A stretch of 32,497 bases of DNA. It comes from Polyangium aurulentum. Lineage in GTDB: Bacteria > Myxococcota_A > Polyangia > Polyangiales > Polyangiaceae. Location: the NCBI GenBank assembly GCA_945875545.1, contig CAMCKZ010000033.1, forward strand, positions 1 through 32,497, in the 5' to 3' direction. Below, piece by piece: positions 4,277-20,067 of this stretch (its first letter is position 1; each line of letters opens with the position of its first letter). The notes beneath the pieces were generated by a model. The model did no database searches. It was given only the letters and a program-made list of their open reading frames with translations, and was not told where the DNA came from. The translations under genes were made by a program, and so were the position numbers.

Positions 4277-4308
4277 GGGAACGCGCATCCCCAATAATGC
4301 GCCGGGCG

Positions 4309-4415: not shown

Positions 4416-4432
4416 TCGGCAAGGCATTTGCA
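4416..4432 (+). promoter_or_regulatory. Sigma-54 promoter of flgN-flgK
   Basis: TCGGCAAGGCATTTGCA matches the -24/-12 consensus at GGCA, G and TTGCA. GG (4418-4419) and GC (4430-4431) are ten bases apart. The predicted start, about 4443, falls immediately before the flgN ATG at 4444. Confidence 0.82.
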
Positions 4433-4443
4433 GGTGCCCATGC

Positions 4444-4815
4444 ATGGTACCTCACGATTCGCCCCTGACCGCCGTGCTCGACGAAATCGAGCGCATCTTG
4501 GAAGAGGAACGCGAGGCCCTGCGGCACCTGAATCGCCCGGTCATCGACCGCTGCGCCGAGCAGAAGACGGCCCTCGAGGCAACGCTTCGCGCCGTGTTGA
4601 CGCGCCAAAACCCTGGTGAATTGCAGCGCGCGCGCATTGAGCGGTTGAAAGCTTCGGCGCTTGTGAATCAGATGCTCATCTCCCAAGCCCGCAATTGCAT
4701 TCGAGGAATTCTGGCCCTCGCGACCGGGCAAGGAGCTTCGTCGAGCATTCCGCCGGCCCCGGCGAGCATCGTTGCGCAGGCGGCCCCCACGCGCCGGCTC
4801 CTGGTGCAGGGCTAG
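4444..4815 (+). CDS. flgN: FlgN-like export chaperone for FlgK/FlgL
   Basis: FlgN is the cytoplasmic chaperone that keeps the hook-filament junction proteins FlgK and FlgL unfolded for export. The 123-residue product is mostly predicted helical. It has the FlgN-type heptad N-terminus (LDEIERILEEEREALRHLNR, about residues 11-30) followed by EQKTALEATL and a basic second helix. The tail from about residue 98 is rich in Ala and Pro. Sequence conservation in this family is weak, so the call leans on size, helical pattern and position directly before flgK. The ATG at 4444 is the only plausible start. With the sigma-54 element upstream, it predicts a leaderless or nearly leaderless message. The stop is two bases before the flgK ATG. 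Confidence 0.85.
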   Translation: MVPHDSPLTAVLDEIERILEEEREALRHLNRPVIDRCAEQKTALEATLRAVLTRQNPGELQRARIERLKASALVNQMLISQARNCIRGILALATGQGASSSIPPAPASIVAQAAPTRRLLVQG

Positions 4816-4817
4816 TC

Positions 4818-6203
4818 ATGGGCATCGCGCTCTCCAATCTTTTGTCCGTCGCCCGCGATGCCATGGCGGTGAACGCCAAGGCCCTCGACATCACGGGCCA
4901 AAACGTCGCGAACGTCAACACCGCGGGCTATGCGCGGCGCCGCGCAGAAATCCAGGCGCGCGGCACTTCCCGCGACTCGTACGGCGGCGTGACGATTGGG
5001 AGCATCACGCGCGCCGCCGACGACCTCACGCAGCGTCGACTTCTTGACGTTCGCGGTCAGGAAACCAGCGCGCGGCAGCGCAGCGACAGTCTCGCGTCCG
5101 TCGAAGCAGTCTTCAACGATGCCAACGGCACGGGCTTGGCCGGAGGCCTTGTAAAGCTCTTCGATTCGTTCAACAGCCTTGCGTCAAATCCACGCGACAC
5201 CACGGCCCGCAACGGCGTGCTCAGCGCGGCGCAATCCGTCGTGGACGACTTCACGATGGCGACCCGCACCATCGACGGGGCGCGCGCCGATATTTTTGCG
5301 CAGGCCCAGGGATATACCAAGCAAATCAATGAGATAGGTGTGGGTATTGCGGCGTTAAGCGGGTCGATTCAGTCGTCGCTGGCAGCGGGGCAAGACGCTT
5401 CCGACCTGCTCGACAAACGCGACATGCTGCTGCGCAATCTCTCCGAAATCGTTGACGTGCAGACTGCAAGCAATCCGGATGGCACGATATTGGTGCGGGC
5501 CGCGGGGCAATCGCTCGTCGAGGGGAACAGCGCCAACACGCTGTCGGTGACCCTCGACACGCCGGGCGCTCTTGCCTTCAAGATTTCGGTCGCCGGCTCT
5601 CCAGCCATGGGATTTTCCGCGCAAAACATGGGCGGCAAGCTCGGCGGAATGCGCCAAGCGCGCGACGAAGACATGGCGGAAACGCGTAAGAAGCTGGATG
5701 CGCTCGCCGCCGATCTGGCCACCGCCGTCAACGGCCTGCACAGCGCGGGCTTCGGCACCGATGGCGTCGCTGGCCGAAATCTCTTCACGTTCACGGCAGC
5801 CAATCCTGCCCACACCCTCGCCATCGATCCGGCATTGGCCGGCCATCCCGAGCGCGTCGCCGCCGCTTCTTCGCTGGCATCGAGCGCAGGCGGAAACGAT
5901 GTAGCGCGGCAAATTGCAGGACTTCAGTCCACGCCATCCACCGCCTCGGGTACCAAAACGCTCATCGAGTCTTACGCGGATCTCGTCGGCGATTTGGGCT
6001 TGCGGCGTCAAAAAGCGACGGGCGACGCGGAGGTCAAGGGTGCCCTCGCCGACCAGATTCAGGCGCTGCACCAACAAACGAGCGGCGTGTCGCTCGACGA
6101 AGAAATGGTCGATTTGACCCGCTACCAGCGCGCGTATGAAGCCTCGTCGAAACTCTTGAAGACCTTCGACGAGCTGATGCGCGGGTTGATTCAGAGCTTG
6201 TAG
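4818..6203 (+). CDS. flgK: FlgK, hook-filament junction protein 1
   Basis: FlgK joins the hook to the filament. The 461-residue product starts at the ATG at 4818 (MGIALSNLLSVARDAM), which matches the family N-terminus; an earlier in-frame start within flgN would add non-homologous sequence. The axial-protein motif GQNVANVNTAGYARRR occurs at about residues 29-44. The FlgK-specific GLAGGLVKLFDSFNSLASNP region lies near residue 115. The C-terminal signature LDEEMVDLTRYQRAYEASSK is just before the end. Terminal helices are those of flagellar axial proteins; the central region is shorter than in enteric FlgK (about 550 residues). It follows flgN by two bases and shares its promoter. Confidence 0.96.
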   Translation: MGIALSNLLSVARDAMAVNAKALDITGQNVANVNTAGYARRRAEIQARGTSRDSYGGVTIGSITRAADDLTQRRLLDVRGQETSARQRSDSLASVEAVFNDANGTGLAGGLVKLFDSFNSLASNPRDTTARNGVLSAAQSVVDDFTMATRTIDGARADIFAQAQGYTKQINEIGVGIAALSGSIQSSLAAGQDASDLLDKRDMLLRNLSEIVDVQTASNPDGTILVRAAGQSLVEGNSANTLSVTLDTPGALAFKISVAGSPAMGFSAQNMGGKLGGMRQARDEDMAETRKKLDALAADLATAVNGLHSAGFGTDGVAGRNLFTFTAANPAHTLAIDPALAGHPERVAAASSLASSAGGNDVARQIAGLQSTPSTASGTKTLIESYADLVGDLGLRRQKATGDAEVKGALADQIQALHQQTSGVSLDEEMVDLTRYQRAYEASSKLLKTFDELMRGLIQSL

Positions 6204-6216
6204 ACTGCACGTATTT

Positions 6217-6233
6217 TTGGCCCGCGCATTGCA
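6217..6233 (+). promoter_or_regulatory. Sigma-54 promoter of flgL
   Basis: TTGGCCCGCGCATTGCA differs from TTGGCACGNNNNTTGCW at a single base. GG (6219-6220) and GC (6231-6232) have the required ten-base spacing. The predicted start is about 6244, giving a 22-base leader with the purine-rich ribosome binding site AGGAAGAGAG. Confidence 0.88.
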
Positions 6234-6265
6234 GCTCACGGTGAAGCCAGGAAGAGAGTTCCATC

Positions 6266-7147
6266 ATGCGCATTTCCGACGCCACCCGTATGGATCGGCT
6301 CGTTTCGAACACGAGTCGGCTGGAAGGCAAGATTGCCACCGTGTCGCAGCGGGTGTCGTCGGGCATCGCCCTCGACGTGCCTTCCACCGACCCGGTGCAA
6401 GCCTCGGCGTACCTGCGGGCGCGCGGAAATTTGGGCCGCATGAAGGGCTACGCGGACGCCATTCGCGATGGCAAAGGAGAATTGGAGCTCGCGGAAGGCT
6501 CTCTCACGCAGGCCCAAGACATCATCGCGCGAGGCCGAGAAATCGCGCTGCAAGCGGCCAACAGCACGTATTCGGCGGTCGACCGAAGTCAGTTTGCAGC
6601 CGAGCTTGGCCAGCTTCGCGACCAGCTCCTCGCGTCGGCCAACCAAGAAGGCCCCAACGGCTACCTTTTTGGGGGCTCAAAAATGGACGCGCCACCCTTC
6701 TCGGCAGCAGGTATTTTTCAGGGTAACGGCGATCAGCGGTTGCTTGAGGTGAGCCCAGGATTCACGATTGCCACGAATGCGAGCGGTGCCCAAGCCTTCA
6801 CGGCGGCGGGCGGCCAAGATGTGTTTTCGCTCTTCGCGCAACTGCAAACAGCGGTCACGTCGAACGACGTCAACGCCATTGCAACGACGGGCAAACTCAT
6901 CGCCGACGCGCACCAACAGGTGGGCACCGCGCGCGGCGAAGTGGGCTACACGATGCAACGAATCGACCTCGCCGATTCGGCTCAAAACATGATGCAAATT
7001 CTCTGGAAGCAGCGCCAAGGCGAGGCGTCCGAAATCGATCCGGCCCAGGTTTATTCGGAGCTTTCCGCGCTTCAGAACACGCTCACCCAGTCGGTGTCCG
7101 TGGCGCGCACGCAGCTCCAAACGCTGTCGGTGAACCGTTTTGGTTGA
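6266..7147 (+). CDS. flgL: FlgL, hook-filament junction protein 3
   Basis: FlgL is the second junction protein, homologous to flagellin at both ends. The 293-residue product begins MRISDATRMDRLVSNTSRLE and has the flagellin-like N-terminal coiled-coil domain (TVSQRVSSGIALDVPSTDPV at about residues 26-45). An FlgL-type block follows around residues 100-136 (ALQAANSTYS, then NQEGPNGYLFGGSK). The C-terminal helix ends LSALQNTLTQSVSVARTQLQ. A strong Shine-Dalgarno AGGAAGAG (6249-6256) supports the ATG at 6266. Length is close to the family norm. It has its own sigma-54-type promoter, so junction proteins FlgK and FlgL can be transcribed separately. Confidence 0.95.
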   Translation: MRISDATRMDRLVSNTSRLEGKIATVSQRVSSGIALDVPSTDPVQASAYLRARGNLGRMKGYADAIRDGKGELELAEGSLTQAQDIIARGREIALQAANSTYSAVDRSQFAAELGQLRDQLLASANQEGPNGYLFGGSKMDAPPFSAAGIFQGNGDQRLLEVSPGFTIATNASGAQAFTAAGGQDVFSLFAQLQTAVTSNDVNAIATTGKLIADAHQQVGTARGEVGYTMQRIDLADSAQNMMQILWKQRQGEASEIDPAQVYSELSALQNTLTQSVSVARTQLQTLSVNRFG

Positions 7148-7244
7148 GCTTTGCGCGGCCAGGTCCGCGATAGGCGGGCGTGGAGAAAAAAGTCGCTGAA
7201 CATTGGACCTTCTCGGCAGCAAGTGCGAAGGTCTCCTCAGCGCA

Positions 7245-7640
7245 ATGTTGATGGTTACGCGCCGAATCGGCGAAAGAATCGTGATTGGCGAAGGAGTCGA
7301 GATCGTCATCACGGAGATTCACCGGCAGTCCGTTCGGGTTGCCGTAAAGGCCCCGCCGGGCCACGTGATTTTCCGAGGTGAGGTCTGGGACAAGATCGCG
7401 TTGGCCAACCGCAATGCCGCCGAGGCAGCGGCGAAACTCGACGACGACAAGCTCGCCATTATCGACGCCCTAGACGCACCGTCCACTTCGCCCGCATCGC
7501 CCGCCGCGGCCGTCCCCGCGAGCTTGGCCGGCGACGACGCGCCGCAGGTGCCGAGCGCTGCGGCAATGCCGCCTCGCCGCATGATTAGCGGCCTCAAGCC
7601 GCTCAAGCCACGGGCGCCCAAGAAGGCCGACGAACCGTGA
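7245..7640 (+). CDS. csrA: CsrA/RsmA post-transcriptional regulator with long C-terminal tail
   Basis: CsrA is a dimeric RNA-binding protein that binds GGA motifs in mRNA leaders and blocks or alters translation. The true start is the ATG at 7245 (MLMVTRRIGERIVIG), matching the family N-terminus. RNA-binding residues Arg6, Arg7 and Arg44 are present, with Val for the usual Leu4. The core ends at about residue 55. A further 75 or so residues rich in Ala, Pro and charged residues follow, so the 131-residue product is about twice the usual 60-70. Its GTG-TGA overlap with the next gene implies coupled translation. Its place between flgL and the flagellin suggests control of late flagellar genes. 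No fliW, the usual antagonist gene, is in the window. Confidence 0.93.
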   Translation: MLMVTRRIGERIVIGEGVEIVITEIHRQSVRVAVKAPPGHVIFRGEVWDKIALANRNAAEAAAKLDDDKLAIIDALDAPSTSPASPAAAVPASLAGDDAPQVPSAAAMPPRRMISGLKPLKPRAPKKADEP

Positions 7641-9565
7641 GCGACGATGCCGACAAGGCTTCGGCCTTCGACATCCGCGCTTCTTTTTTTCGCGAAAATA
7701 TCGGCATTGCCGCCCTCGGAAATCAGACGCGCGAAGCTCTCGAAGCGGCCACCGCGAAAGGTGTAGTCCTCACGCTTCCGTCGGGCGATCCGGCGCTCAC
7801 CTACGACGGAATTCTCTTCGGCGCTCCCAGCGATATCGCCATGGAAGACCGCATTCTTGGCCCGATTGGCTTGCACTACGACGGCGTCGTCGTGATCTTC
7901 GGCCTCGGATTTGGCCACGCGGTCCGCGCCATCCGTGATCGCACAAGGGCGCCCATCGTGGTCTTTGAGCCCGAGCCGGGCCTGCTGCGCACGGTCTTCG
8001 AACACGGCCCTTGGGATCTGCCCACGGTGCACATCGTCTCCACCACGGTCGAACTTGACCGCCTGTGGCCCCAAATTTCGAGCAACCGGCCCCACGCAAA
8101 ACTCATCGTGAGTCCGGGCTACCCGAAGCTGTACCCGGAGGCCCTTGAGCGCTTGGGCGCGGCGATTCGCAACCTCGTCGCCGACGTCGAACTCGTGGAA
8201 AACACCCGGTCGATCCGCTACCGCGAGTGGATTTCGCACGTTCTGCAAAACATCCCGGCCCTCGTCGAACACCCGCTCGCCGTCGGCATCGGCAGCGAGC
8301 TTCGCGGCGTTCCCGCGTTCATTATCGGCGCCGGTCCGTCCCTCGATATCAATGCAAAATACATCAAAGAAGCGGCCACCAAGGGCGTCGTGATTTGCGT
8401 GGAGGTTGCGGGTCGAGCCCTCGCAAAGCACAACCAAGGGCCAGCACATTTCGTAGTCTCGCTCGAGGGGCAAAATCTCGCGACAGAGCTCGAGGTCTCC
8501 ACGATCGAAGGTGAGACAATTCGTGTTATTTCGCTCTGCGCCCACCCGACGAGCTTGACCGCGGGCACCGGTGCGCTCATGCCCTTCTTTGAGTCTCTGC
8601 CGGCGTTTCGTCAGTTGCCCGAACTGACGGGCTCGCCGGGGCTCACGGTCGGGGGCAGCGTGTCAACGGTGGCGTTTTCCCTGGCTTTGCAGCTCGGGTG
8701 CAGCCCGATTGTGCTCGTGGGCCAAGACATGGCGTTTTCCGGTGGAAAAACGCACGCTGGCGGCACGCTCTTCGAAGACATCCGCGTGGAAAGTTCCAAA
8801 GAAACGGGCATGCTCCGCTTCTCGAATTTCGAGGTCGCCACGAGGCTTCGCGAGGCTTCTCACCTGGGCCCGCCCGCCAGCGCCGACGCCCTCTTCGAGG
8901 CGGAAGGTTGGGGCGGCACGGCCTCGGTATCCACCAATAGCACATTCAATTCGTACCGTATGTGGTTCGAAGTGGCCGCCGACACCGTGAAGCAAAGTGG
9001 CCTCGATTTTCGGCTCGTCAACTGCACCGAAGGTGGCGCGCGCATCAATGGTTTCGAGGAGATGACCCTGCGTCAACTTATCGACACCCTCCCCGACGTC
9101 CCGGTGACGCCCGCGTCGCTCCTCGCTGCGGGAAAGAGACGCGGCCTCGTGGCCAAGTCCGTTTTGCGCAAGTGGGCCGCAGACAATGCGAGTGTGTGCC
9201 ATCGCATCAAGCGCAGTGCGTTTCTCCTCGAGAAAACCTCCGAGATGGCCGCGCTCGCCATGGTCAAAAACGAGCCTCACGCCATCAAGCGAGCCTTCGA
9301 ACGCCTCGACCGCGCGGAGCGAGAAATGCGCCTCGCCGCGCGCCGCCAACCCATGCTCGATGCCTGGGCGTATGGCCTGCTTCACGACCTCACCGTCGCC
9401 CCTCAGGAAATCGTCGAAGCCCGCGAACGCGATGCCAAGCACGACGCCGAATGGGGCATTCGTACCGAAGGCGAGATTGCCAAAATTCTCCGCCGATCCG
9501 CCACGGATCTCGAAGAGCTTTTTCGCGCACTGGAAGCCCGCGTGGCGTCGGAAAGCAGCAATTAG
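7637..9565 (+). CDS. Maf/DUF115-family flagellin-modification protein (putative glycosyltransferase)
   Basis: This 642-residue protein belongs to the motility-associated factor (Maf, DUF115) family. Members are thought to transfer nonulosonic acids such as pseudaminic or legionaminic acid to flagellin in the cytoplasm. Seen directly: a Maf N-terminal domain (about 80-180, VVIFGLGFGHAVRAI and IVVFEPEPG), the central glycine-rich motif PAFIIGAGPSLDIN (226-239) and the downstream VGQDMAFSGGKTHA block (361-374). These resemble the Rossmann-like core of MptE/Maf proteins. The C-terminal third is helical and charged. It starts at GTG 7637, overlapping the csrA stop. The flagellin gene follows directly, fitting it as the acceptor. 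No sugar-biosynthesis genes are present here. Donor and acceptor are inferred. Confidence 0.87.
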   Translation: MSDDADKASAFDIRASFFRENIGIAALGNQTREALEAATAKGVVLTLPSGDPALTYDGILFGAPSDIAMEDRILGPIGLHYDGVVVIFGLGFGHAVRAIRDRTRAPIVVFEPEPGLLRTVFEHGPWDLPTVHIVSTTVELDRLWPQISSNRPHAKLIVSPGYPKLYPEALERLGAAIRNLVADVELVENTRSIRYREWISHVLQNIPALVEHPLAVGIGSELRGVPAFIIGAGPSLDINAKYIKEAATKGVVICVEVAGRALAKHNQGPAHFVVSLEGQNLATELEVSTIEGETIRVISLCAHPTSLTAGTGALMPFFESLPAFRQLPELTGSPGLTVGGSVSTVAFSLALQLGCSPIVLVGQDMAFSGGKTHAGGTLFEDIRVESSKETGMLRFSNFEVATRLREASHLGPPASADALFEAEGWGGTASVSTNSTFNSYRMWFEVAADTVKQSGLDFRLVNCTEGGARINGFEEMTLRQLIDTLPDVPVTPASLLAAGKRRGLVAKSVLRKWAADNASVCHRIKRSAFLLEKTSEMAALAMVKNEPHAIKRAFERLDRAEREMRLAARRQPMLDAWAYGLLHDLTVAPQEIVEARERDAKHDAEWGIRTEGEIAKILRRSATDLEELFRALEARVASESSN

Positions 9566-9603
9566 CCTCGTTTTTACGCGTGATTTTTCCCATGAGCCGG
9601 CCC

Positions 9604-9620
9604 TTGGCATGAGGGGTGCA
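9604..9620 (+). promoter_or_regulatory. Sigma-54 promoter of the flagellin gene
   Basis: TTGGCATGAGGGGTGCA fits TTGGCACGNNNNTTGCW with mismatches only at C7 and the first T of TTGC. GG (9606-9607) and GC (9618-9619) are ten bases apart. Transcription would begin near 9631, giving a leader of about 47 bases with GAGG before the ATG at 9678. Confidence 0.87.
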
Positions 9621-9677
9621 GAGAAGACCGCGTAGTGACAGCGCCCATCGCGCAGTCGCCCAATCGCGAGGTTTCTC

Positions 9678-10511
9678 ATGCCCCTGCAAATTCAAACAAA
9701 CGTCGCATCTCTTTCGGCACAGCGAAATCTCGCCACGTCGCAAACGAACTTGGCGACGGTGTTCAATCGCCTATCGAGCGGTTACCGAATCAACTCGGCA
9801 AAAGACGACGCAGCGGGCCTGGCGATCAGCGAGAGCATGAAGCTGCAGATTCGGTCGTACGTCGTGGCCGAGCGAAACGCGAACGACGCCATCTCGATGT
9901 CGCAAACCGCGGAAGGTGCTCTCGGGCAGATCAGCGACATCCTCGGGCGTATGCGTGAGCTTGCGGTGCAAGGGGCCAACGGCTCGCTCCAGTCGACGGA
10001 CCGCACCTACCTCCAAACGGAATTTCGCTCGCTGCAGCTGGAAATCCAGCGAATCATGACCTCCACGAAGTTCAACGGGCTGCCGCTCATCAACGCGTCG
10101 GCCGCCGTCGTCAACTTCCAGGTCGGCATCAGCAACATTTCCTCGGACCGCATTTCCGTCACGTTCGGTTCCGTGAAACTCGCGAATTTGATCTCGTCGG
10201 ACTCGCACCTCGACGGCGCCGCGGCGAACTCGATGACGGCGATGGACACCATCGATACCTCGCTCGCCCGCGTATCAACGGCCCGCGCCCGCTTCGGTGC
10301 CGTGATGAACCGCTTGGAAATCACGACCGCCAACATTCAGACGGTGCGCCTCAACGTCGCCGCCGCGAACTCGCGCATTCGCGACGTCGACGTGGCCGAA
10401 GAAAGCGCCAAACTCGCCCGCGAGCAGGTGCTCGCACAAGCCGGCACGTCGGTCCTCGCGCAAGCCAATCAGGTGCCGCAACAGGCCCTCGCCCTCCTCA
10501 AGGGCGGCTAA
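9678..10511 (+). CDS. fliC: Flagellin, short D0/D1-only type
   Basis: This is the filament subunit. The 277-residue product has the conserved N-terminal flagellin block (MPLQIQTNVASLSAQRNL, then RLSSGYRINSAKDDAAGLAI at about residues 31-50). It also has the conserved C-terminal block (RIRDVDVAEESAKLAREQVL, then AGTSVLAQANQVPQQALALL). The central region is only about 60 residues, so the surface-exposed D2/D3 domains are missing and the filament would be thin-walled. Residues 85-105 carry the TLR5-site-like stretch GRMRELAVQGANGS. A GAGG ribosome binding site precedes the ATG. It has its own sigma-54-type promoter. The upstream Maf gene suggests glycosylation, probably on the central Ser/Thr-rich part. 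Confidence 0.97.
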   Translation: MPLQIQTNVASLSAQRNLATSQTNLATVFNRLSSGYRINSAKDDAAGLAISESMKLQIRSYVVAERNANDAISMSQTAEGALGQISDILGRMRELAVQGANGSLQSTDRTYLQTEFRSLQLEIQRIMTSTKFNGLPLINASAAVVNFQVGISNISSDRISVTFGSVKLANLISSDSHLDGAAANSMTAMDTIDTSLARVSTARARFGAVMNRLEITTANIQTVRLNVAAANSRIRDVDVAEESAKLAREQVLAQAGTSVLAQANQVPQQALALLKGG

Positions 10512-10585
10512 ATGACGCCCTTCGCTCGGGGCCTATGACCTCACGGGCGATCGCCTCGTAACAATCTGAATTTGTATCGATTTTA

Positions 10586-10618
10586 GGATTTCGGATCCGG
10601 GCCGTTCAGGAGGTTGGA
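10586..10618 (+). promoter_or_regulatory. Cluster of four GGA motifs in the fliD leader (candidate CsrA site)
   Basis: GGA occurs at 10586-10588, 10593-10595, 10609-10611 and 10616-10618, directly before the fliD ATG at 10621. The third lies inside the AGGAGG Shine-Dalgarno (10608-10613), and the second is in the palindrome CGGATCCG (10592-10599). CsrA binds paired GGA motifs over ribosome binding sites, and csrA is encoded about 3 kb upstream. The regulatory role is inferred. Confidence 0.45.
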
Positions 10619-10620
10619 CC

Positions 10621-12024
10621 ATGGCAGCACTTGGCATTATCGGCGCTAGCGGTATCGATACGAGCAGCCTCATTTCGGCCCTCGTGTCGGCGTCCTCGGA
10701 GCCTGTCACCCTGCTAAGCCAAAAGGCCCGCGATGCGCGCTCGGCCTCCTCGCAGTTGTCGTCGCTAGGCTCCACGCTGGCCGGTCTTCGGTCCTCCGCC
10801 GGTGCCCTCGATACCGCCACCGAGGTTGCGTCGTTCGTGGTCACGCAAGCGAACACCAACGCCTTCACGACGGTGGCCGATGGCAGCGCGCAGCCGGGCG
10901 CTTACAACATCTCGGTCTCCCAGTTGGCCAAGGAGCAGCGCACGTATTCGAAAGCCTTCTCTGTGGCCAAGGCAGACGTCGCGTTGGGGCTCACAGGCAG
11001 CTTCACCCTGGCCATTGGGGCCGGAACCGCCAAAGAAATTACGCTCGCCGCCACCGACAGCCTCGAAACCGTGTCGTCGCGCATCAACGGCCTTGGTCTT
11101 CGGCTTCAGGCGGGTATTTTTCAAGAAGCCGATGGCAAGTTTCGCATGCAGCTCCGCGGCCTCGACACCGGCACCGCCAACAGCGTGACGTTCGGCGTCA
11201 GCGGTACGAGCGCCGCGGGCTCCACGTTAACCGACCCCCTCGGAATCGCCGAAACCGGGCTCACCGCCTCCGCCGGAAAGACCGTGCAGTCTGCAACGAA
11301 TTCCATTATGCTCATCGATGGTTTTTCCGTCGAGCGCACGACGAATCAGGTTTCCGGCGCCGTCGCGGGGCTCTCATTCTCGCTAAAAGATGTGACCAAC
11401 TCCACGGGCACGCACGTTCCTGTGAATGTTGCGGTGGCTCCCGACACGGGCGCTCTTGTGGGCAAGGTCACTGCCTTCGTAAGCGCCTTCAACGGCGTCG
11501 TAGGCTCGGTCAATAAGCTCGCGGGCGTCGGCGGCGTCAAGGCCGCGGTGCCGCTTTTGTCCGGCGATTCCACGCTGCGTAGCATTCTCTCGGAGCTTCG
11601 AAGCGTGGCAACTGCAGGCACTGCGGGCACGGCGGGTGGCCTCTACGCATCCATGCGCGAGGTCGGCGTCACGATCACGAAAGACGGCACCCTCGCAGTC
11701 GATGGAGACAAACTTTCGAAGGCCGTGATCGCCGATCCCGTCAGCGTTCAAAAACTTTTTGCGCGGCCCACGTCGGCGACCACCGGCGGCATCATGGCAA
11801 CGGTGCGTGAGGCGGTCGATGGCATCACGAACTTCACGACCGGCAAGCTCACCTCGCGCAAGAAGTACTTCGACGACAAGGCCGTAAAGGCCGACGCCGA
11901 GGCCGCGAAAAAGAGGACGGGCCTTGACGCGTACGCGGATCGCCTACGAAAGCAGTTCACGGCGATGGACGAGGCCTACGCAAAAAACGCGTCGCTCGGG
12001 CAACAGCTAAGTCGCATGGGATAA
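10621..12024 (+). CDS. fliD: FliD, filament cap protein
   Basis: FliD caps the filament tip and drives flagellin polymerisation. The 467-residue product begins MAALGIIGASGIDTSSLISA, the conserved FliD N-terminus (GSGID motif). It has the N-terminal coiled-coil region (SEPVTLLSQKARDARSASSQ) and the middle block VDGDKLSKAVIADPVSVQKLF near residues 360-380. The C-terminal helices end DAYADRLRKQFTAMDEAYAKN, the typical FliD ending. A consensus AGGAGG lies seven bases before the ATG. I find no sigma-54 element in the 109-base gap after the flagellin gene; it may be read through from the flagellin promoter or have another promoter type. fliS follows. Confidence 0.95.
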   Translation: MAALGIIGASGIDTSSLISALVSASSEPVTLLSQKARDARSASSQLSSLGSTLAGLRSSAGALDTATEVASFVVTQANTNAFTTVADGSAQPGAYNISVSQLAKEQRTYSKAFSVAKADVALGLTGSFTLAIGAGTAKEITLAATDSLETVSSRINGLGLRLQAGIFQEADGKFRMQLRGLDTGTANSVTFGVSGTSAAGSTLTDPLGIAETGLTASAGKTVQSATNSIMLIDGFSVERTTNQVSGAVAGLSFSLKDVTNSTGTHVPVNVAVAPDTGALVGKVTAFVSAFNGVVGSVNKLAGVGGVKAAVPLLSGDSTLRSILSELRSVATAGTAGTAGGLYASMREVGVTITKDGTLAVDGDKLSKAVIADPVSVQKLFARPTSATTGGIMATVREAVDGITNFTTGKLTSRKKYFDDKAVKADAEAAKKRTGLDAYADRLRKQFTAMDEAYAKNASLGQQLSRMG

Positions 12025-12065
12025 GGTTTTAGTTTTCTTCCCGCGGGCCGTTCTCTCCATGTGCG

Positions 12066-12084
12066 GGAGTTTCGCCGCAACTCC
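12066..12084 (+). other. Stem-loop just upstream of the fliS ribosome binding site
   Basis: GGAGTT (12066-12071) pairs perfectly with AACTCC (12079-12084) around a 7-base loop, ending next to the AGG (12085-12087) that serves the fliS ATG at 12096. There is no T-run, so it is not a terminator. It could affect access to the fliS start. Confidence 0.4.
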
Positions 12085-12095
12085 AGGTGCCCACC

Positions 12096-12494
12096 ATGAC
12101 CGACAACGCTGCAGCTCGATACCAACAGGTTCAGATCCGTACGAGCAATCCCGGAGAGATTCTGATCGCGCTCTTTGATGGTCTGTTCAAGTTTTTGCTC
12201 CTGGCAAAACACCACATGACCGCCGGCCGCCGTGGGCCAGCTGGTGAGGCAATTTCCAGGGCATTTGCGATCGTGTCGGAGCTTTACTGTTCGCTCGATC
12301 ACTCGAAGTCGCCGGAGCTCTGCGCCAACTTGTCGTCCCTCTACGACTTTTCGATGGACCGCCTGACGACCGCAAACATCAAGCGCGACCCGGCCATGAT
12401 CGACGAGTGCATTCGTGTCCTGACGCCCATTCGCGAAGCGTTCACCACGGTGGTGAAGCAGCAGAACGCAGCGGCGAGTGGTGGCCTCCGCTAA
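12096..12494 (+). CDS. fliS: FliS, flagellin export chaperone
   Basis: FliS binds the disordered C-terminus of flagellin in the cytoplasm, preventing premature polymerisation before export. The product is 132 residues from the ATG at 12096, which has AGG at 12085-12087; a GTG at 12087 would add three residues and is less likely. Conserved FliS features are ARYQQVQIRTSNPGEILIAL-FDG (residues 5-27), the helical LCANLSSLYDFSMDRLTTAN segment and the closing VLTPIREAFTTVV. The length is normal. It ends the flagellar block, 34 bases before an intrinsic terminator. Its order after fliC and fliD is the common one. Confidence 0.94.
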   Translation: MTDNAAARYQQVQIRTSNPGEILIALFDGLFKFLLLAKHHMTAGRRGPAGEAISRAFAIVSELYCSLDHSKSPELCANLSSLYDFSMDRLTTANIKRDPAMIDECIRVLTPIREAFTTVVKQQNAAASGGLR

Positions 12495-12528
12495 CGTCCA
12501 GGTGCCGCGTCACGGGCCGTGCACCACG

Positions 12529-12560
12529 CCGTGCATCGCAACGGGCTGCACGGTTTTTTT
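12529..12560 (+). terminator. Intrinsic terminator after fliS
   Basis: CCGTGCA (12529-12535) pairs with TGCACGG (12547-12553) and is followed by seven T residues (12554-12560). A second CCGTGCA at 12517-12523 could pair with the same right arm as an alternative fold. It marks the end of the flagellar transcription block. Confidence 0.92.
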
Positions 12561-12689
12561 GTCGGTAACTTCCGTGGCCGTAGGGCGAGCCGAAGAGGTC
12601 CCGCGCTTTGGTTCAGCCTCGCCGATTGCGAGGGAATTTGGCCGGGAATTTCGGTTCTTCCGCTTCCCTGTGCCACACTCCAGAGACCC

Positions 12690-14027
12690 ATGGCATCCAC
12701 GACCGACGCCCACGCTGACGCGCTTCCAACGAGCGGTATTCACCTTGAGTTTGCGCGCCTTCCGGGCTCGACAATCTTCGACGTCACGCTGCCCTCCGGT
12801 GAACGCGTGCGCGCCACGCGAAACCGTGAGCGCGTTTTTCCGGGGCTCGGCACCCTCGGCCCGTCGACGAACGCGCTCTACGAACTAGCCATCGAGGAAC
12901 TTGGTGCTGAAGCTCTCGCAGGCACGATCCTCGATCTCGGCGCAGGCTGCGGCCTTGGTGCCCAACAACTTTTGGAGGCTGGGGCGGCTGTCATCGCCGT
13001 CGATGCGGATGCAACGGCGTGCAAAGTTGCTGTCTTTTTCGCCGCGAAGGCCACCGTCATTCACGCGCCCATTGAGAGCGTTGTGCTCGATGCTCTCGCC
13101 GATGGTGCCGTGTTCATCGATGTCCTGGGGTTCTTGGAATCGCCTTTGGGTACCCTGCGCGCGGCCCGAAAACTCCTTCGACCCGGCGCGCGAATCGTCG
13201 TCGCGGAGCCCCTCGCGTATCCGGCGCAGGTCTTGATTCCACCCGCGCGCCGCGCCACGTCGCCCGCCGAGCTCGCGCTATTTTTGGAGTCCGCGGGGTT
13301 CGCTCTTCTGCGCTGCGCGGCCGATGGCGGCGTCGTGGTGGCCTCCGGCGTGGCGATCGAAGACGCCTCCGTGGATAGCCTCGTGCGGGGTGCGAACCAC
13401 TGCGGCTCCGGGGATCTGGTGGCTGCTTTGAAGCTGTTCGATGTGGTTGCTGGCGAGGGAAAACGCTCACTCGCCGTGCAAGCCGCGTTGGACTCCGTGG
13501 ACGTACTCGTGGCTCAGGGCCGAGGCGATGATGCGTGCTCACGCTTGCTGGCCATCTTGCGACGCTTTCCCGACGAGCCTCGCCCCCTTGCGGCGCTCTC
13601 GCAGTTCATGGTGGCCGCAAGTGAGTACACCGAAGCCCAGCAGCTCGCCGAAAAGGCCTCGCGTCTCGCGCCTCTCGATCCGGGCGTTCTCGTCGCGTTG
13701 GCGATCGCTCTCGATTCCACACGCAGCCCCGATGCGCCCGCAGCGTGGCGGAGAGCCTTCAACCTCACGCCACAATCGATGGAGGTCGCACTGCCTGCGG
13801 CCACGAGCGCGATGGAACATGCCTTTCCATTGCTTGCAGAACGCATCCTTTTGCGAAGCATGGAATACGCAGGAAATACCCTGGCAGATGCCTACATTTT
13901 GCGCGCCCGCGTGCGCATGGCCCTCGGGCGAAATGAAGATGCGTCCCTCGATGCGCGGCTCGCGGTGGCCTCCGATCCGCAGTCGCCCGTCGCGCGCGCA
14001 CTGCTCGCCGCCCTCGAAGCAGCGTGA
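12690..14027 (+). CDS. SAM-dependent methyltransferase with C-terminal TPR-like region
   Basis: The ATG at 12690 is chosen because earlier in-frame codons run through the fliS terminator. The 445-residue product has a class I methyltransferase core. Motif I is LDLGAGCGLG (81-90), followed by VIAVDADATA (acidic residue for the SAM ribose), a motif IV-like VFIDVLGFLESP and RPGARIVVAEPLAY. From about residue 230 the protein changes to repeated helix-turn-helix units (for example LAALSQFMVAASEYTEAQQLAEKASRLAPLDP), like tetratricopeptide repeats. The substrate is unknown. Position after the flagellar genes and downstream of Maf allows a role in flagellin modification, but the terminator shows it is a separate unit, so this is speculation. 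Confidence 0.75.
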   Translation: MASTTDAHADALPTSGIHLEFARLPGSTIFDVTLPSGERVRATRNRERVFPGLGTLGPSTNALYELAIEELGAEALAGTILDLGAGCGLGAQQLLEAGAAVIAVDADATACKVAVFFAAKATVIHAPIESVVLDALADGAVFIDVLGFLESPLGTLRAARKLLRPGARIVVAEPLAYPAQVLIPPARRATSPAELALFLESAGFALLRCAADGGVVVASGVAIEDASVDSLVRGANHCGSGDLVAALKLFDVVAGEGKRSLAVQAALDSVDVLVAQGRGDDACSRLLAILRRFPDEPRPLAALSQFMVAASEYTEAQQLAEKASRLAPLDPGVLVALAIALDSTRSPDAPAAWRRAFNLTPQSMEVALPAATSAMEHAFPLLAERILLRSMEYAGNTLADAYILRARVRMALGRNEDASLDARLAVASDPQSPVARALLAALEAA

Positions 14028-14142: not shown

Positions 14143-14604
14143 CTAGCCGACGCGCTCCACGACGAGGGTCATTCCGTAGCCGTCGTCGTCCCAATCGACG
14201 TCGTCGAAGCAGCTGTAAATGATGCCAAGGCCGCGCCCGTGCAGCGAGATTTCGGACTGCTCGCTACGCCGTGACCGGAAGGGCGTGGGGCACGCCGCGC
14301 CCGTCCAGCGCATCGAAAATTTGACCGTTTTTTCCGTCGATTCCATGCGCACATGAATGCTGTGGGTGGCGCTGCGCTCGGCGGATCTCTCAGCAATCAG
14401 ATGCAGGTAATGCATGTAGTCTGCATCGCGCTCTGCTGAGTCGATTTCCAGTGTTCCGTGCACAAGAGCGTTCGTCAGCGCCTCCGTGAGACCAAACCGC
14501 ACGCGCTCTTTTTCGACCCAATTTGGAAGGGCCTCGACGAGTTTGTCCGTGAACGGACCCATGGCTTCCGCGCTCGCCGCAACAACGCGGTCGACGACCT
14601 TCAT
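14143..14604 (-). CDS. RsbW/SpoIIAB-like serine kinase (anti-sigma type)
   Basis: In partner-switching systems this type of GHKL kinase phosphorylates a STAS protein and binds either it or another target such as a sigma or anti-sigma factor. The 153-residue product has the N box RFGLTEALTNALVHG (36-50; Glu41, Asn45) and a glycine-rich lid HGRGLGI near residue 122. It ends in the expected strand MTLVVERVG. The G1 box is unusual: where DxGxG is expected there is RWTGAAC, so the ATP-contacting Asp is missing. The start overlaps the stop of the upstream phosphatase gene by four bases (ATGA), so the two are likely made together. Target not identifiable from sequence. Confidence 0.82.
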   Translation of the reverse strand: MKVVDRVVAASAEAMGPFTDKLVEALPNWVEKERVRFGLTEALTNALVHGTLEIDSAERDADYMHYLHLIAERSAERSATHSIHVRMESTEKTVKFSMRWTGAACPTPFRSRRSEQSEISLHGRGLGIIYSCFDDVDWDDDGYGMTLVVERVG

Positions 14605-15785
14605 GTGTCTCGGCGCTCCATGTACAAGAGGGTGGCATCGTCGGGCTGTACGGTGTCTGTTTCTAGAAATACCGCACGCACACGTTCGTGCAAACGCTCA
14701 TCAAGGGCTCCGAGCGTCTCGCCCGGATCCGCACGAAGAAGCGTGAGCCGTTCGAGCGTCTCTTCGATGGAATCCGCGAGACCAAAAGGCTCGGTCAAGC
14801 CGTCGCTTACGACGATGATCCGGTCGCCGGCCTCGATGGGAAGGCGCTCCACGCTGTAGCGCTGATCCGTGAGCAAACCCGGTGGAACGCCGCATGCGCG
14901 CACGGTGGCGATAATCTCGGAACCGCGCAAAATAGCGATGGGCGGGAGGCCTGCGTTGACGATCGCAACCTCGGCGCGGCCCAGCACAATGAGAGCCGCG
15001 CAAACGTAATGACCGGAATCTTCGTCGCACAGGTGAGAATTGAGCTGGGTCATCGCGTCGTCGATCGGGTGATCGCGCAAGAGCAAACGGAGAGAACTTT
15101 TCACACTGGAAGCCACCATGCCTGCGGACACCCCGTGCCCGCTCACATCGATCAACGCCGCAACCGGGTAGCCGTAAGGCCCTTCGATGATGTCGTAGAG
15201 GTCGCCGCCCACCTCACCGCTGGGAATAACCACGCCACTCAGGCGCCAGCCTGGCCGTTCTTGCGGCATCTTTGGCAGCTGGGAACGCTGGGTCTTGCGC
15301 GCGTCTTCGAGCTCGCTTTGAAGGGCGTCGAGTTGCGCCGCGGCGGTGTGGGCGGATTGGGCCTTCGTGCGGTCGGCGCGCGCACGAATCAGCGAGCGCA
15401 CGCGCGCCACAAGAATGCGCGTGTCGACGGGCTTGGTGATGTAGTCGTCGGCACCCGCATTGAAGGCGTCTTCGATGTGCTTCGGCAGATCAGAAGCCGT
15501 GAGCAGAATGACCGGAACGTCTTTGACTGCCTGCTTTTTCCGCATGATGCGGAGCATGGTCGGACCGTCCATTGTGGGCATCATGTAGTCGAGCAGAACG
15601 AGCGTCGGCGGCTTCTTGGCAAGCTCGGTGAGGGCTTGACTGCCGTCGTTGGCGAGCACGACTTCAAAGCCCGCTTGCTCAAGAACGGCCTTCAACATCT
15701 TGCGGTTCGCGACCGCATCATCGACAACCAGAATGGTCTCTTTGGCGGCGGCATCGGGGGGAGCCGGAGTGCGGGCGTTGGTCAC
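14601..15785 (-). CDS. Response regulator with SpoIIE-type PP2C phosphatase domain
   Basis: This 394-residue protein probably dephosphorylates the neighbouring STAS protein when its receiver is phosphorylated. The receiver covers residues 16-135: acidic pocket Asp22/Asp23, phosphoacceptor Asp66 in LLDYMMP, Thr96 and Lys118. A helical linker (about 140-175) follows. The PP2C/SpoIIE domain has all metal-site motifs: GGDLYD (193-198), DVSGHG (213-218), SDG (327-329) and PDDATLL (381-387). The start is a GTG at 15785, eight bases after the STAS gene, with no clear Shine-Dalgarno, so translation is likely coupled. The domain order is that of RsbU/RssB-like and HsbR-like regulators, except that the kinase domain is a separate gene here. 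The cognate sensor kinase is not evident. Confidence 0.92.
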   Translation of the reverse strand: MTNARTPAPPDAAAKETILVVDDAVANRKMLKAVLEQAGFEVVLANDGSQALTELAKKPPTLVLLDYMMPTMDGPTMLRIMRKKQAVKDVPVILLTASDLPKHIEDAFNAGADDYITKPVDTRILVARVRSLIRARADRTKAQSAHTAAAQLDALQSELEDARKTQRSQLPKMPQERPGWRLSGVVIPSGEVGGDLYDIIEGPYGYPVAALIDVSGHGVSAGMVASSVKSSLRLLLRDHPIDDAMTQLNSHLCDEDSGHYVCAALIVLGRAEVAIVNAGLPPIAILRGSEIIATVRACGVPPGLLTDQRYSVERLPIEAGDRIIVVSDGLTEPFGLADSIEETLERLTLLRADPGETLGALDERLHERVRAVFLETDTVQPDDATLLYMERRDT

Positions 15786-15793
15786 AGGATGAC

Positions 15794-16117
15794 TCAGGAT
15801 GCCACCGCAGCGTCGACGTCTGCGGTGATGGTGAATACGCGATCAAGGCGCGTCATGGTCAAGACCCGGCGGATGCCGTCGCCTACGCCGCAAAGCACGA
15901 GTTTTCCGCCCGCACCCTGAAGCGACGTGTGAACCTTGACGATGGCCCCGAGGGCTGTGGAATCGACGATGTCGGTGCCCTTCATGTCGAGCACGACCTT
16001 GGTCGCCTTCGAGGTCGTGACCGCCTCAACGAGCAACTTTGTGTTCGCTGCATCGACGCGCGCGGGAAGTGTGACAACGGCAAAAGAATCGCGATGAGCG
16101 GTAACAAAATCAGACAT
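15794..16117 (-). CDS. STAS-domain anti-anti-sigma factor
   Basis: This is a single-domain STAS protein of 107 residues (SpoIIAA/RsbV/HsbA type). Its phosphorylation state, set by the kinase and phosphatase encoded downstream, would decide its binding partner. The phosphorylation site motif is intact: VVLDMKGTDIVDSTALGAIV, with Ser53 after Asp52. The closing GKLVLCGVGDGIRRVL and TRLDRVFTI blocks are also standard. The ATG at 16117 with an upstream GAGG is preferred; an in-frame extension of 79 residues to 16354 is non-homologous and would overlap the divergent MBL gene. First gene of the three-gene minus-strand module. The sigma factor or FlgM-like target is unknown. Confidence 0.93.
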   Translation of the reverse strand: MSDFVTAHRDSFAVVTLPARVDAANTKLLVEAVTTSKATKVVLDMKGTDIVDSTALGAIVKVHTSLQGAGGKLVLCGVGDGIRRVLTMTRLDRVFTITADVDAAVAS

Positions 16118-16318
16118 GGGGCCTCGTTTCCCGATGGTACGGTACTGAGAGGGGCGTTGGAACACTTCCCGCGTGCGGAGACAAAAGTCGCGCAACCCCT
16201 GGGTTTTTAGCCACAAATGGCTCGCTGGCCCCCAATATCGACGACCGAGGCTTGCGGAAATAGACCCCTGTGAGCCGGCTCTCGTGACCTTCCACAAATT
16301 TCCTTGACACCCGGAAAC

Positions 16319-17422
16319 ATGCCCCACATTCACGACCTCGCGACGACCCTCCACGACTTCGACGACGCGTGGCTGGAGCCTCGCGCGGCCCTTCAGGTGC
16401 GGGGCATTCGCCGCGCCGCCGAACGTCTTCGCGAACGTTTCGCGGGTGGCGCACGATGCATCGCGGTGCGAACCTTAGAGCTCGCGACGCTCCCCTACCC
16501 CTCGCGGTTTGCCTTCCAGGGGGCCGCTCTGTCGCCTGCGCCATTTGTCGTAATGACCCACCGGGCCCTCCTCGTGCAGTTCCTGCGCCGCGGTCAACTA
16601 AAGACCCTGCTGTTCAACCCCACCGATGTGGTGGCCGCTCGTGAAACCCCGTATTTTGCTCGTCTTCGCGCCTCAATGCCCGAAATGGCGGAGCGCTTGG
16701 TGGCCCGCATCGAGGCCCCAATCGTGGAACAATTGGCCAAGCTATCTATACGGCCCGAAGACATCGACTATATCGCGTACGACCACTTCCATACGCAAGA
16801 TCTTCGCCCCATTTTGGGCACCACCGACGGCCATTACGCGGCGCGGTTTCCGAACGCTAGGCTCCTGGCCCCCGCAGCCGAATGGGAGGCCTTCGAAGAC
16901 CCTCACCCCATGCAGCGGGCGTGGTTAATCGCGCAAGGGCGCACGAACATTTCGTCCGATCGCGTGGTGCTCACGCGCACCGATTTGCAGCTCGGCGACG
17001 GCGTGTTGCTCCTGCGCACCCCCGGTCACACCATCGGCAATCAAACGCTCTTCGTCGCCACCGACACGGGCGTGTGGGGCACGAGTGAAAACGGAACTTG
17101 CGTGGATAATTACTCGCCGCACGAGAGCCAGATTCCCGGCGTGTCGGCCACCGCGCGCACCCTCGACCTCGACGTTCTCATGAATTCAAATACGCCCGAA
17201 CTGGGCGCGAGGCACTACGCCTCGATGCTGCTCGAAAAGACCCTCGTGTGCCGCGTGGCGCGGGCGCCGGGCTTCGTGCAAATGCTTTCGTCGAGCGAGG
17301 TGACCCCGCATCGCATTGCGCCGGGTCTGTCGCCCACGCTGCTCCACGGAGCTATCACCAGCGGCAGCCTCGTGATTCCGCGGCGCGAAAGGCCTCTCTC
17401 GCACGAGTCGCCGGCGACGTAA
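16319..17422 (+). CDS. Metallo-beta-lactamase-fold protein with atypical metal motif
   Basis: This 367-residue protein shows MBL-fold features: DYIAYDHFHTQDLRP (150-164) at the place of the HxHxDH motif, LRTPGHTIGNQTLFV (232-246) with the third His (His237), and VATDTGVWG with a following Asp. The first motif reads H-F-H-T-Q-D: His156 and His158 are kept, but the expected Asp-His pair is Gln-Asp. Metal content and reaction are therefore uncertain; a hydrolase acting on an ester or lactone is one possibility. The N-terminal 100 residues are not recognisable. The ATG at 16319 is preferred over a TTG 15 bases upstream. It is divergent from the STAS module and converges with the hybrid kinase gene (20-base gap). 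Confidence 0.7.
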   Translation: MPHIHDLATTLHDFDDAWLEPRAALQVRGIRRAAERLRERFAGGARCIAVRTLELATLPYPSRFAFQGAALSPAPFVVMTHRALLVQFLRRGQLKTLLFNPTDVVAARETPYFARLRASMPEMAERLVARIEAPIVEQLAKLSIRPEDIDYIAYDHFHTQDLRPILGTTDGHYAARFPNARLLAPAAEWEAFEDPHPMQRAWLIAQGRTNISSDRVVLTRTDLQLGDGVLLLRTPGHTIGNQTLFVATDTGVWGTSENGTCVDNYSPHESQIPGVSATARTLDLDVLMNSNTPELGARHYASMLLEKTLVCRVARAPGFVQMLSSSEVTPHRIAPGLSPTLLHGAITSGSLVIPRRERPLSHESPAT

Positions 17423-17442: not shown

Positions 17443-20067
17443 CTATTTCCTGTCGATCGCGATGAAGAGACCGCCGTCCGGGTGGGCTTGCCCGTGCTCT
17501 TGGTGGAGCCGCGCCAAACGCCGATACGGATCGAGACCTTGCAAGAACCGCGGGTCGAATGCGGCGCTTGACCGCGCGATGTGCGTGATGTCGCGCCAGC
17601 GGTCGGCGACCTCTTGCGTCACGGGAAAACACGAGCTGAGCGTGCCCACGGTTTCGATGGCTTCGCGGCCCACCACGCGCACGCGCGCGAGCTCCACGTA
17701 ATTTTTTCGGCCGACCTCCGCCAACGTTCGCGAGCAGCAAAGCACCGGAACGCCGAACATTTTCGTCAGCGACTCGAGGCGCGACGCAAGGTTTACCGCG
17801 TCGCCCAGAACGGTGGCATCGAAGCGCTTGGTCTCGCCCACGGTGCCCAAAAGAACAGGCCCGGTGGCAATCCCGATGCCCACATCGAGGTCGCGAAAAG
17901 TCTCCTCTTCGCGGAGGGCCGCAACCCCATCGAGCATGGCTTGCGCCGAGGAACATGCGTCGGTCGGGGTCTTGTCGAAGAGGCCGATGATGCCGTCGCC
18001 CACGTACTTGTCGACGAAGCCTCCGTGGTCGCGCACGCAGGGCCCGAGCTTGGCAAAAACCCGATTGACGAAGGTCATGGTGGCCCGCGCCCCAAGCCGT
18101 TCCGAGAGTTTCGTGAAGCCCCGTATGTCGGCAAAAAGCACGCTCAATCGCTTGGTGGCGCTGTCGCCGAGCTCGACGTCGAGAAGGTTGCCGCGCCCGA
18201 GGTGCCCAAGAATGGCGTCGGGAACGAACCGCGCCATGGAGCGAGCGGTGCGCCGCACGAGCAAATGCGTGCGAACGCGCGCGAGTATTTCACGTCTAGA
18301 AAAGGGCTTTGCTACGTAATCCGAGGCACCGGCGTCGAAACCTTCAACGACGTCCTCGACGCGATTCTTGGCGGTGAGCAAAATGATCGGCAACTCGGTC
18401 AGCCCGTACTGCTGCCGCATTCTCTTGCAGGCCTCGATGCCTCCCATGCGCGGCATCATGACGTCGAGGACCACGAGGTCGTAGGGGCCGCGCCGCGCAA
18501 GCTTTTCGAGGGCGTCGATTCCGTCTTCCGCTTGGTCCACTTCGACATCGAGAGAGCGCAGATTTGTGAGCAAAACCGCTCGATTTGTGGCCTCGTCGTC
18601 GACGATCAAAACCCGCGGGCGCGTGCCCTTGACCGCCAGCGACTCGCTAACCGCGATGAGCCCGCGGCTGCTCTTGTGACCCACGGATTTCGCGCCGTTG
18701 GCCGAGGGCGCGGACCATTGATCCGCGACCAGGATGTTGTTCCCGAGCGACCAGAGCGCCGTGTTGCCCGCGGCGAGATCGAAGGTGACGGAGGTGCCCT
18801 TTCCCTCTTCCGATTCCATCGAGACGCCGCCGCCGTGGGCCTCCACGAGGCGCTTGACGACGGCGAGGCCGAGACCCGTGCCCCCGTAGGCCCGGGTGTC
18901 GCCGGCTTGCCCCTGCACAAACGGATCGAACACCCGCGCGACCATGGGCGCCGCAACCCCAATACCTGTATCTTGCACGCAAAATTGAACGCGATCGCCC
19001 TCCTGGCGCACGCGCAGAACGATCGTTCCGCGATGCGTAAATTTCACGGCATTCGCCAGGAGATTCACCAAGATTTGATGGAGCTTTTGGGGCTCTGCAA
19101 GCACCGTCGGAATGCTGGCATCGACCTGGATTGACAGCTCCACGGGCTTCTCGCCGAGGAGCGGCCGAACGATCGCGATGGCTTGCTCGATCTGCGAGAT
19201 GACGTCGACCTCGCTGATTTGGAGGACCGGCGCCTGCGCGCGATTTCTTGAGAACTCGAGGATGTTGTCGACGAGGTCTTTCAGTCGGCGGCCCGCGCTC
19301 ACGATGAGCTCCAAGCGCTCCTTGACCTTCGGCGAGACGCGCCCCTCCGCACCCGCTGCAAGCCCCTCTGCGAGCCCCATGATGCCCGTAATGGGCGTTC
19401 GCAGCTCGTGCGAGGTCGTCGCGAGAAACTCATCTTTCAGCGCATCAAGGTCGCGGAGCCTTCGTGTCGTGACCTCGAGCTCCCGGGTTCGCGCCTCGAG
19501 CTCTGCGCGTTGACCGCGAATGCGCTCCGTCAGGCGACGCGTAAAGTTCGCGCTCATCGAGACGTAAACGACGACGCACGCGACCACGATGCCCGTGCCC
19601 AAACTGCTGATTTGCGTCCCGGGCCCGTGCCCAGGAAGGAGCACTTTCCACGCGCCAAAGCCGAGGCCAAGGGGCACCAAATTTCGGAGCAAAAAAGGCA
19701 CGCCGCCGACGACGATGGGGTTGGTCACGATGACCACGAGACCGCAGGCCACGACGATGGGGCTCTCGGAGTAAAGCCCGAGCACAGCCCCCGTATAGGC
19801 GCTGTCTGCGTACATCGCGGCCCGACCCGCACGCCCGCTGTTCGCGAAACGCAGACTGCCCCAAAAAAACAGGTGCGGCGCCAGAAGACCGTAGGCCATG
19901 ACGGCGAGGTCGACGGCGCCGAGTGGCCGATTTTCCACGAAAACAACCGCCAAGGCAGCCGCCGTGCACGCTAGAAAGCGAGGCCCGTACGTGTGCCGCA
20001 CGAGCGGTTGGGCCCGCTGGTACGAGGCCTTGAGCCAGTGAACAATCACGGGCGGACCGTACTCCAC
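17443..20067 (-). CDS. Membrane hybrid histidine kinase-receiver-adenylate cyclase with MASE2-like sensor
   Basis: This 874-residue multidomain signalling protein combines phosphorelay and cAMP synthesis. Residues 28-172 contain five or six hydrophobic helices resembling MASE2 (APHLFFWGSLRF, then VVGGVPFLLRNL). A coiled coil (175-210) leads to HisKA with His220 in FLATTSHELRTP. The HATPase domain has Asn335/Asn339, DTGIG (366-370) and GGTGLGL (395-401). A receiver follows (485-605; phosphoacceptor Asp535 in LVVLDVMMP). The C-terminal class III cyclase domain (640-800) has metal Asp647 and Asp691, purine-selecting Lys687 and Thr752, and transition-state Asn759 and Arg763. This set suggests an active adenylate cyclase of the IIIb kind. 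The start is a GTG at 20067; a second GTG six codons on is possible. Confidence 0.9.
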   Translation of the reverse strand: MEYGPPVIVHWLKASYQRAQPLVRHTYGPRFLACTAAALAVVFVENRPLGAVDLAVMAYGLLAPHLFFWGSLRFANSGRAGRAAMYADSAYTGAVLGLYSESPIVVACGLVVIVTNPIVVGGVPFLLRNLVPLGLGFGAWKVLLPGHGPGTQISSLGTGIVVACVVVYVSMSANFTRRLTERIRGQRAELEARTRELEVTTRRLRDLDALKDEFLATTSHELRTPITGIMGLAEGLAAGAEGRVSPKVKERLELIVSAGRRLKDLVDNILEFSRNRAQAPVLQISEVDVISQIEQAIAIVRPLLGEKPVELSIQVDASIPTVLAEPQKLHQILVNLLANAVKFTHRGTIVLRVRQEGDRVQFCVQDTGIGVAAPMVARVFDPFVQGQAGDTRAYGGTGLGLAVVKRLVEAHGGGVSMESEEGKGTSVTFDLAAGNTALWSLGNNILVADQWSAPSANGAKSVGHKSSRGLIAVSESLAVKGTRPRVLIVDDEATNRAVLLTNLRSLDVEVDQAEDGIDALEKLARRGPYDLVVLDVMMPRMGGIEACKRMRQQYGLTELPIILLTAKNRVEDVVEGFDAGASDYVAKPFSRREILARVRTHLLVRRTARSMARFVPDAILGHLGRGNLLDVELGDSATKRLSVLFADIRGFTKLSERLGARATMTFVNRVFAKLGPCVRDHGGFVDKYVGDGIIGLFDKTPTDACSSAQAMLDGVAALREEETFRDLDVGIGIATGPVLLGTVGETKRFDATVLGDAVNLASRLESLTKMFGVPVLCCSRTLAEVGRKNYVELARVRVVGREAIETVGTLSSCFPVTQEVADRWRDITHIARSSAAFDPRFLQGLDPYRRLARLHQEHGQAHPDGGLFIAIDRK

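Follow-up and report, generated by a model that had tools for sequence, protein, structure and literature searches.

The window, a stretch of 32,497 nucleotides that makes up the whole of contig C33 in a 3.5-Mb genome of Polyangium aurulentum (G000), carries on its minus strand three adjacent genes encoding a STAS protein, a response regulator that combines a receiver with a PP2C phosphatase domain, and a stand-alone GHKL protein (Table 1). An earlier note on this DNA had placed the three genes here, and their positions and strand are confirmed by Pfam domains and by orthologs in congeners; since the module proteins are about 75–86% identical to their counterparts in two congeneric genomes, we consider them to be products of real genes. 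The phosphatase gene shares 4 bases (ATGA) with the GHKL gene, and the STAS gene lies 8 bases upstream of the phosphatase gene; because of this overlap and this short gap, translational coupling of the module genes, which had been taken as given, is plausible. Neither a sigma-28-like site upstream of the STAS gene nor a sigma-54-like site in the gap at 16118–16303 was found, which is weak evidence, as the consensus may differ. Identity with Pseudomonas RssB or RssC was considered and rejected, the scores being far under the curated cut-offs (106 vs. 700 bits for RssB and 19.9 vs. 250 for RssC).

Table 1. Genes of the module, its neighbors, and flgM in the window, with supporting matches.
Feature	Position	Strand	Matches
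flgM, anti-sigma-28 factor	3933–4244	+	TIGR03824 54.6 bits, over cut-off; PF04316 46.4 bits
Methyltransferase/TPR gene, end of flagellar cluster, convergent with module	about 12690–14027	+	
Stand-alone GHKL protein, SpoIIAB/RsbW fold, 153 aa	14143–14604	-	PF13581 39 bits
Receiver-PP2C (SpoIIE-type) response regulator/phosphatase, 394 aa	14601–15785	-	PF00072 99.6 bits; PF07228 94.7 bits
STAS protein, anti-anti-sigma type, 107 aa	15794–16117	-	PF01740 62.9 bits; TIGR00377 59.2 bits, over cut-off
MBL-fold (lactonase-like) gene, divergent from module	16304–17422	+	weak NCBIfam matches, best 42.6 bits (YtnP lactonase), below cut-off
Hybrid histidine kinase-receiver-class III nucleotidyl cyclase	17443–20067	-	Pfam HisKA, HATPase_c, Response_reg, Guanylate_cyc

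The module faces the end of a late flagellar cluster at 28–14027, which comprises flgG, flgA, flgH, flgI, flgJ, flgM, flgN, flgK, flgL, csrA, maf (MptE-like), fliC, fliD, fliS, and the methyltransferase/TPR gene, with names given by order and similarity and only some of the genes tested against families. The module had been described as lying one gene away from this flgM-containing cluster, and only the methyltransferase/TPR gene, whose start was picked by comparison with relatives and which follows fliS in many of them, stands between the module and fliS; however, flgM itself, the sole FlgM gene in the genome, is about 10 kb off. Just upstream of flgM, at 3891–3906, is a perfect sigma-54 −24/−12 consensus (TGGCACGGTGTTTGCT), the only site without a mismatch in the window. 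On the other side of the module, the hybrid kinase-cyclase might be a possible input or output of it, and this gene is found near the module in all three members of the genus. Further along, at 28405–30149, there is a separate sigma/anti-sigma pair: an ECF sigma factor gene and, after it, a gene for a membrane anti-sigma-like protein whose N-terminus is of the zinc-finger type.

We surveyed 183 genomes of the order, in which a receiver-PP2C ortholog (at least 260 bits) is present in 11. The residues expected for a partner switch are well conserved in two of the three proteins. The acid pocket and lysine of the receiver (D22, D23, D66, and K118) and the metal ligands of the PP2C domain (D195, D213, D328, D382, and D383) are invariant in all five receiver-PP2C orthologs compared, and the D52-S53-T54 residues of the STAS protein, within a DSTALG motif in which Ser53 is the acceptor, are invariant in seven of seven orthologs.

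The GHKL protein departs from this pattern. Its AlphaFold model (pLDDT 91.5) best matches, among solved structures, LvrC of Leptospira (Z 17.2 over 142 residues), followed by SpoIIAB (Z 14.7) and RsbW (Z 13.8), and it is thus predicted to be a Bergerat GHKL anti-sigma fold of the SpoIIAB/RsbW type with an altered nucleotide pocket; a single-sequence search had found no solved relative, whereas profile and fold searches did. The N-box (E41 and N45) and the G2 glycines are retained, but the G1 box reads RW-T-G-A-x-C-P, with the second glycine gone, and in a profile alignment Trp100 falls opposite the G1 Asp of SpoIIAB (VRDEG vs. VRWkG), so that the intact N-box, G1, and G2 set of the SpoIIAB and RsbW kinases is not found here. 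This change speaks against a kinase of the ordinary ATP-dependent kind, although, judging from the retained N-box and G2 residues, the protein may still bind nucleotide. The RW-type box occurs in the window, both congeners (G001 and G002), G004, G144, G175, and G070, and in an orphan GHKL protein of G080, whereas the G1 Asp is kept in G124, in every match below 92 bits, and in the second RsbW-like protein of the window genome, in a tally that leaves out G171, G170, G169, G031, and G134 and for which G004 was read separately. The orphan gene of G080 (L274:8335-8751, contig C87) has no STAS or phosphatase gene on its contig; its neighbors, identified by eye, are a large gene for a UvrD/AddA-like helicase and a small PilZ-like gene. 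The second RsbW-like protein belongs to a STAS-GHKL (RsbV/RsbW-like) pair on G000:C10 at about 35–36.4 kb (L064, L138), with a canonical G1 box (DEGEGFDP), kept in G001 and G002, and no sigma gene was seen alongside it.

By domain content, the activities of HsbR and HsbA of Pseudomonas aeruginosa are spread over three genes in the window (receiver-PP2C, STAS, and GHKL), as had been noted before. In common with the HsbR/HsbA system (with HptB and HsbD), the locus has the receiver, PP2C, GHKL, and STAS activities and a phosphorylatable STAS serine, but flgM, though in the wider neighborhood, is about 10 kb away, the GHKL protein is separate and altered in G1, and neither an Hpt nor a GGDEF gene lies beside the module, although an adjacent Hpt gene is present in the relative G175. 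CrsR/CrsA of Shewanella oneidensis has the same domain set, and its fused order of receiver, PP2C, and GHKL recurs in G004, G144, and G124, whereas the window is split. The adjoining cognate STAS gene with a phosphorylatable serine, a trait of both systems, is present here; the joining of receiver, PP2C, and GHKL in one polypeptide is absent from the window and its congeners. We do not assign the module to the HsbR/HsbA-CrsR/CrsA family, because it lacks that single-polypeptide layout and because the likeness was drawn from domain content and layout. By analogy, the module probably works like CrsRA and HsbRA, that is, as a receiver-controlled partner switch.

Other systems share parts of this design. 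SpoIIAB-SpoIIAA and RsbW-RsbV of Bacillus have the GHKL fold, a STAS protein with a serine acceptor, and a separate PP2C phosphatase, but in the window the phosphatase is under the control of a receiver, the position of the G1 Asp is taken by a Trp, and the insert after the N-box is longer. SpoIIAB and RsbW bind sigma factors as well as STAS proteins. LvrC, the best fold match, also has an anti-sigma-like GHKL domain linked to a receiver; in LvrC the two are fused, with no PP2C domain, and its structure was solved with ADP-Mg bound (PMC13269768).

The split arrangement had been pointed out earlier, but fused orthologs occur within the same family, and a split set is also present on a Salmonella plasmid; splitting is a minor trait and not the sign of a new system. 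In G004, G144, and G124, receiver, PP2C, and GHKL form a single protein whose gene is immediately preceded by a STAS gene, the layout of HsbR and CrsR. The genes are separate in G175, as in the window, and so are the receiver-PP2C and GHKL genes of G070, next to which no STAS gene was found. Outside the window, the complete triad, split or fused, is present in G001, G002, G004, G144, G124, and G175. In the receiver-PP2C tree, the genus is grouped (90/99) and G004 pairs with G144 (99/99), but the tree does not show whether the split or the fused layout is older, and we make no claim as to which came first. In G175, Hpt, STAS, receiver-PP2C, and GHKL genes lie in one run (L143:8548-10931, contig C66), a split equivalent of the HptB-HsbA-HsbR set.

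Searches of mobile elements gave only distant matches. No relative was found in viral contigs, and the plasmid search returned only receiver-PP2C relatives below 30% identity or receiver-only matches. A plasmid of Salmonella enterica (L230, CP053577.1, 41463–43432) carries receiver-PP2C, STAS, and ATP-binding genes as three separate adjacent genes, as in the window, but in the order phosphatase-STAS-GHKL, with receiver and PP2C regions about 27% identical to those of the G144 query, no flagellar genes near in the stretch seen, and an ATP-binding protein that keeps the G1 Asp (TDAGDPF). Pantoea plasmids have receiver-PP2C genes similar to that of the Salmonella plasmid.

Taken together, we propose a three-protein partner switch, in which a histidine-kinase or phosphorelay input would phosphorylate the receiver of the PP2C protein, the phosphatase, with its intact catalytic residues, would dephosphorylate the STAS protein at Ser53, and the unphosphorylated STAS protein would, as in the SpoIIA, Rsb, and CrsRA systems, bind the RsbW-like GHKL protein, which would then free its client. 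The input step is supported by the Hpt-containing run in G175 and by a hybrid kinase next to the module in G124, which has an Hpt domain. The client would most likely be a sigma factor that the GHKL protein holds directly, a FliA/WhiG-type sigma being the leading candidate and a group-2 sigma the next; we hold this reading tentatively, at somewhat less than even confidence.

The case for a FliA/WhiG-type client comes from other genera. A gene for such a sigma lies on the contig of the module about 8 kb away in G144, about 24 kb away in G004, and about 14.5 kb away in G175, where the match (165 bits) is below the curated cut-off; because G004 and G144 share synteny, these represent two independent lineages rather than three. 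In genomes of this size, a position falls within 25 kb of any one named gene with a chance of roughly 0.4 to 1%, so the two cases are suggestive, but they came to light after the fact, when any of several sigma factors might have drawn notice. The sigmas in G004 (L135:16376-17011, contig C342) and G175 (L237, about 7.9–8.5 kb, contig C66) belong to genomes without detectable flagellin or FlgM. With G163, which is cut off, left out, all seven module genomes with an RW-type GHKL protein have a FliA/WhiG-type sigma, and none of the three module genomes without this sigma (G124, G026, and G141) has an RW-type GHKL protein; taken alone, this co-occurrence is weak, FliA/WhiG-type sigmas being common in the order. 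The window genome has a single FliA, and because it lies on another contig (G000:C24:18698-19336), its distance from the module cannot be judged in this genus. The genome also encodes RpoD, a second RpoD-like sigma of group-2 type (L202; 310 bits to the RpoD model, below cut-off), and an RpoH-like sigma, and the last two could be alternative clients, against the FliA reading.

A general stress switch of the CrsRA kind, in which the GHKL protein would hold a group-2 (RpoS-like) sigma and the flagellar neighborhood would be incidental, is somewhat unlikely. The kinase domain of HsbR binds RpoS directly, and CrsR binds it as well (PMC6482189), the second RpoD-like sigma could serve as such a client, and orthologous modules occur in genomes without flagella. 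However, no module locus was seen beside a group-2 sigma gene, and group-2-type sigmas are found in module-bearing and module-free genomes alike, so that their distribution does not discriminate.

The earlier note had instead suggested a switch directed at FlgM, as in P. aeruginosa, where unphosphorylated HsbA binds FlgM (PMC6482189). Here, the unphosphorylated STAS protein would bind FlgM, free FliA, and thereby tune the late flagellar genes, the module having been recruited to the flagellar region in this genus, independently of the similar event in P. aeruginosa. The single FlgM and single FliA of the genome fit such a switch, and so does the gene order: in G001 and G002, both metagenome bins, the order from the flg genes through fliS, the methyltransferase/TPR gene, the module, the MBL gene, and the hybrid kinase-cyclase to nadE is the same as in the window, so that three species share the order fliS-methyltransferase-module. 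The only difference observed is that both congeners have a gene for a dehydrogenase-like protein of about 435 aa between the STAS and MBL genes (L041, about 6337–7640; L042, about 4145–5458); it is absent from the window, which has 186 bases there. However, nadE and the hybrid kinase, which have no flagellar role, are kept equally, and the linkage within the genus therefore reflects general collinearity and adds little to the FlgM link. The conserved linkage that the note had proposed to check thus holds within the genus and is lost above it, where the note's own ground for rejecting its idea, a linkage that is not conserved, applies: flgM is on the contig of the module, about 10 kb apart, in the three congeners, and in no module locus outside the genus.

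Beyond the genus, the module and the flagellar genes go separate ways. No flagellar genes were found in the fetched flanks of the module loci in G004, G144, G175, G124, G070, and G141, where the neighbors are instead ftsA-ftsZ and a Ser/Thr kinase gene (G004 and G144), the Hpt gene (G175), or the hybrid kinase and a pyrophosphatase gene (G124). FlgM is present in 75 of the 183 genomes, yet no module was found in about 25 flagellar clusters of relatives (6 + 19, 10 of the 19 extended past fliS), and 5 of the 11 genomes with a receiver-PP2C ortholog (G004, G026, G141, G175, and G124) have neither flagellin nor FlgM. The comparison with P. aeruginosa holds for the activities but is weaker than had been stated, since the hsbA/hsbR/hptB-flgM linkage is a relocation specific to that species among Pseudomonas (PMC5085249), likewise lineage-specific, and the HsbR kinase domain has the RpoS partner mentioned above. 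A FlgM-directed switch is therefore possible but not supported; we regard it as unlikely, and FlgM held by the STAS protein as less likely than a sigma held by the GHKL protein.

Finally, the GHKL protein might be a pseudokinase adaptor that sets the activity of a protein other than a sigma, such as the neighboring hybrid kinase-cyclase, as the Trp in place of the G1 Asp in all RW-type members, the retention of that gene in the genus, and the known STAS switch controlling the cyclase HsbD (PMC5085249) could suggest, but this is highly improbable, as outside the genus no hybrid kinase-cyclase was found beside the module, generic kinase/receiver matches excepted, and the kept N-box and G2 residues make nucleotide binding possible.

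Returning to the sigma held directly by the GHKL protein, a broader form of this reading would be that, in Polyangiales, receiver-controlled partner switches whose GHKL anti-sigma protein has no G1 Asp sequester FliA/WhiG-type sigmas directly, beside FlgM in flagellated species and in its place in non-flagellated species that kept the sigma; we regard this form as unlikely. If none of these readings holds, the module would be an ordinary orphan partner switch that lies beside flagellar genes in one genus by chance.

Two features deserve closer attention, the altered G1 box and the FliA neighborhood seen in other genera. Where a conserved GHKL subclass lacks the G1 Asp, one may ask how the STAS protein that it partners is phosphorylated. 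In the classical picture, FlgM holds sigma-28, and the related WhiG is held by RsiG, which is unrelated to FlgM. If our reading is true, control of a FliA/WhiG-type sigma by a GHKL partner switch would add another mode to these, and it would link two-component signaling with genes for motility or development in myxobacteria-like bacteria.
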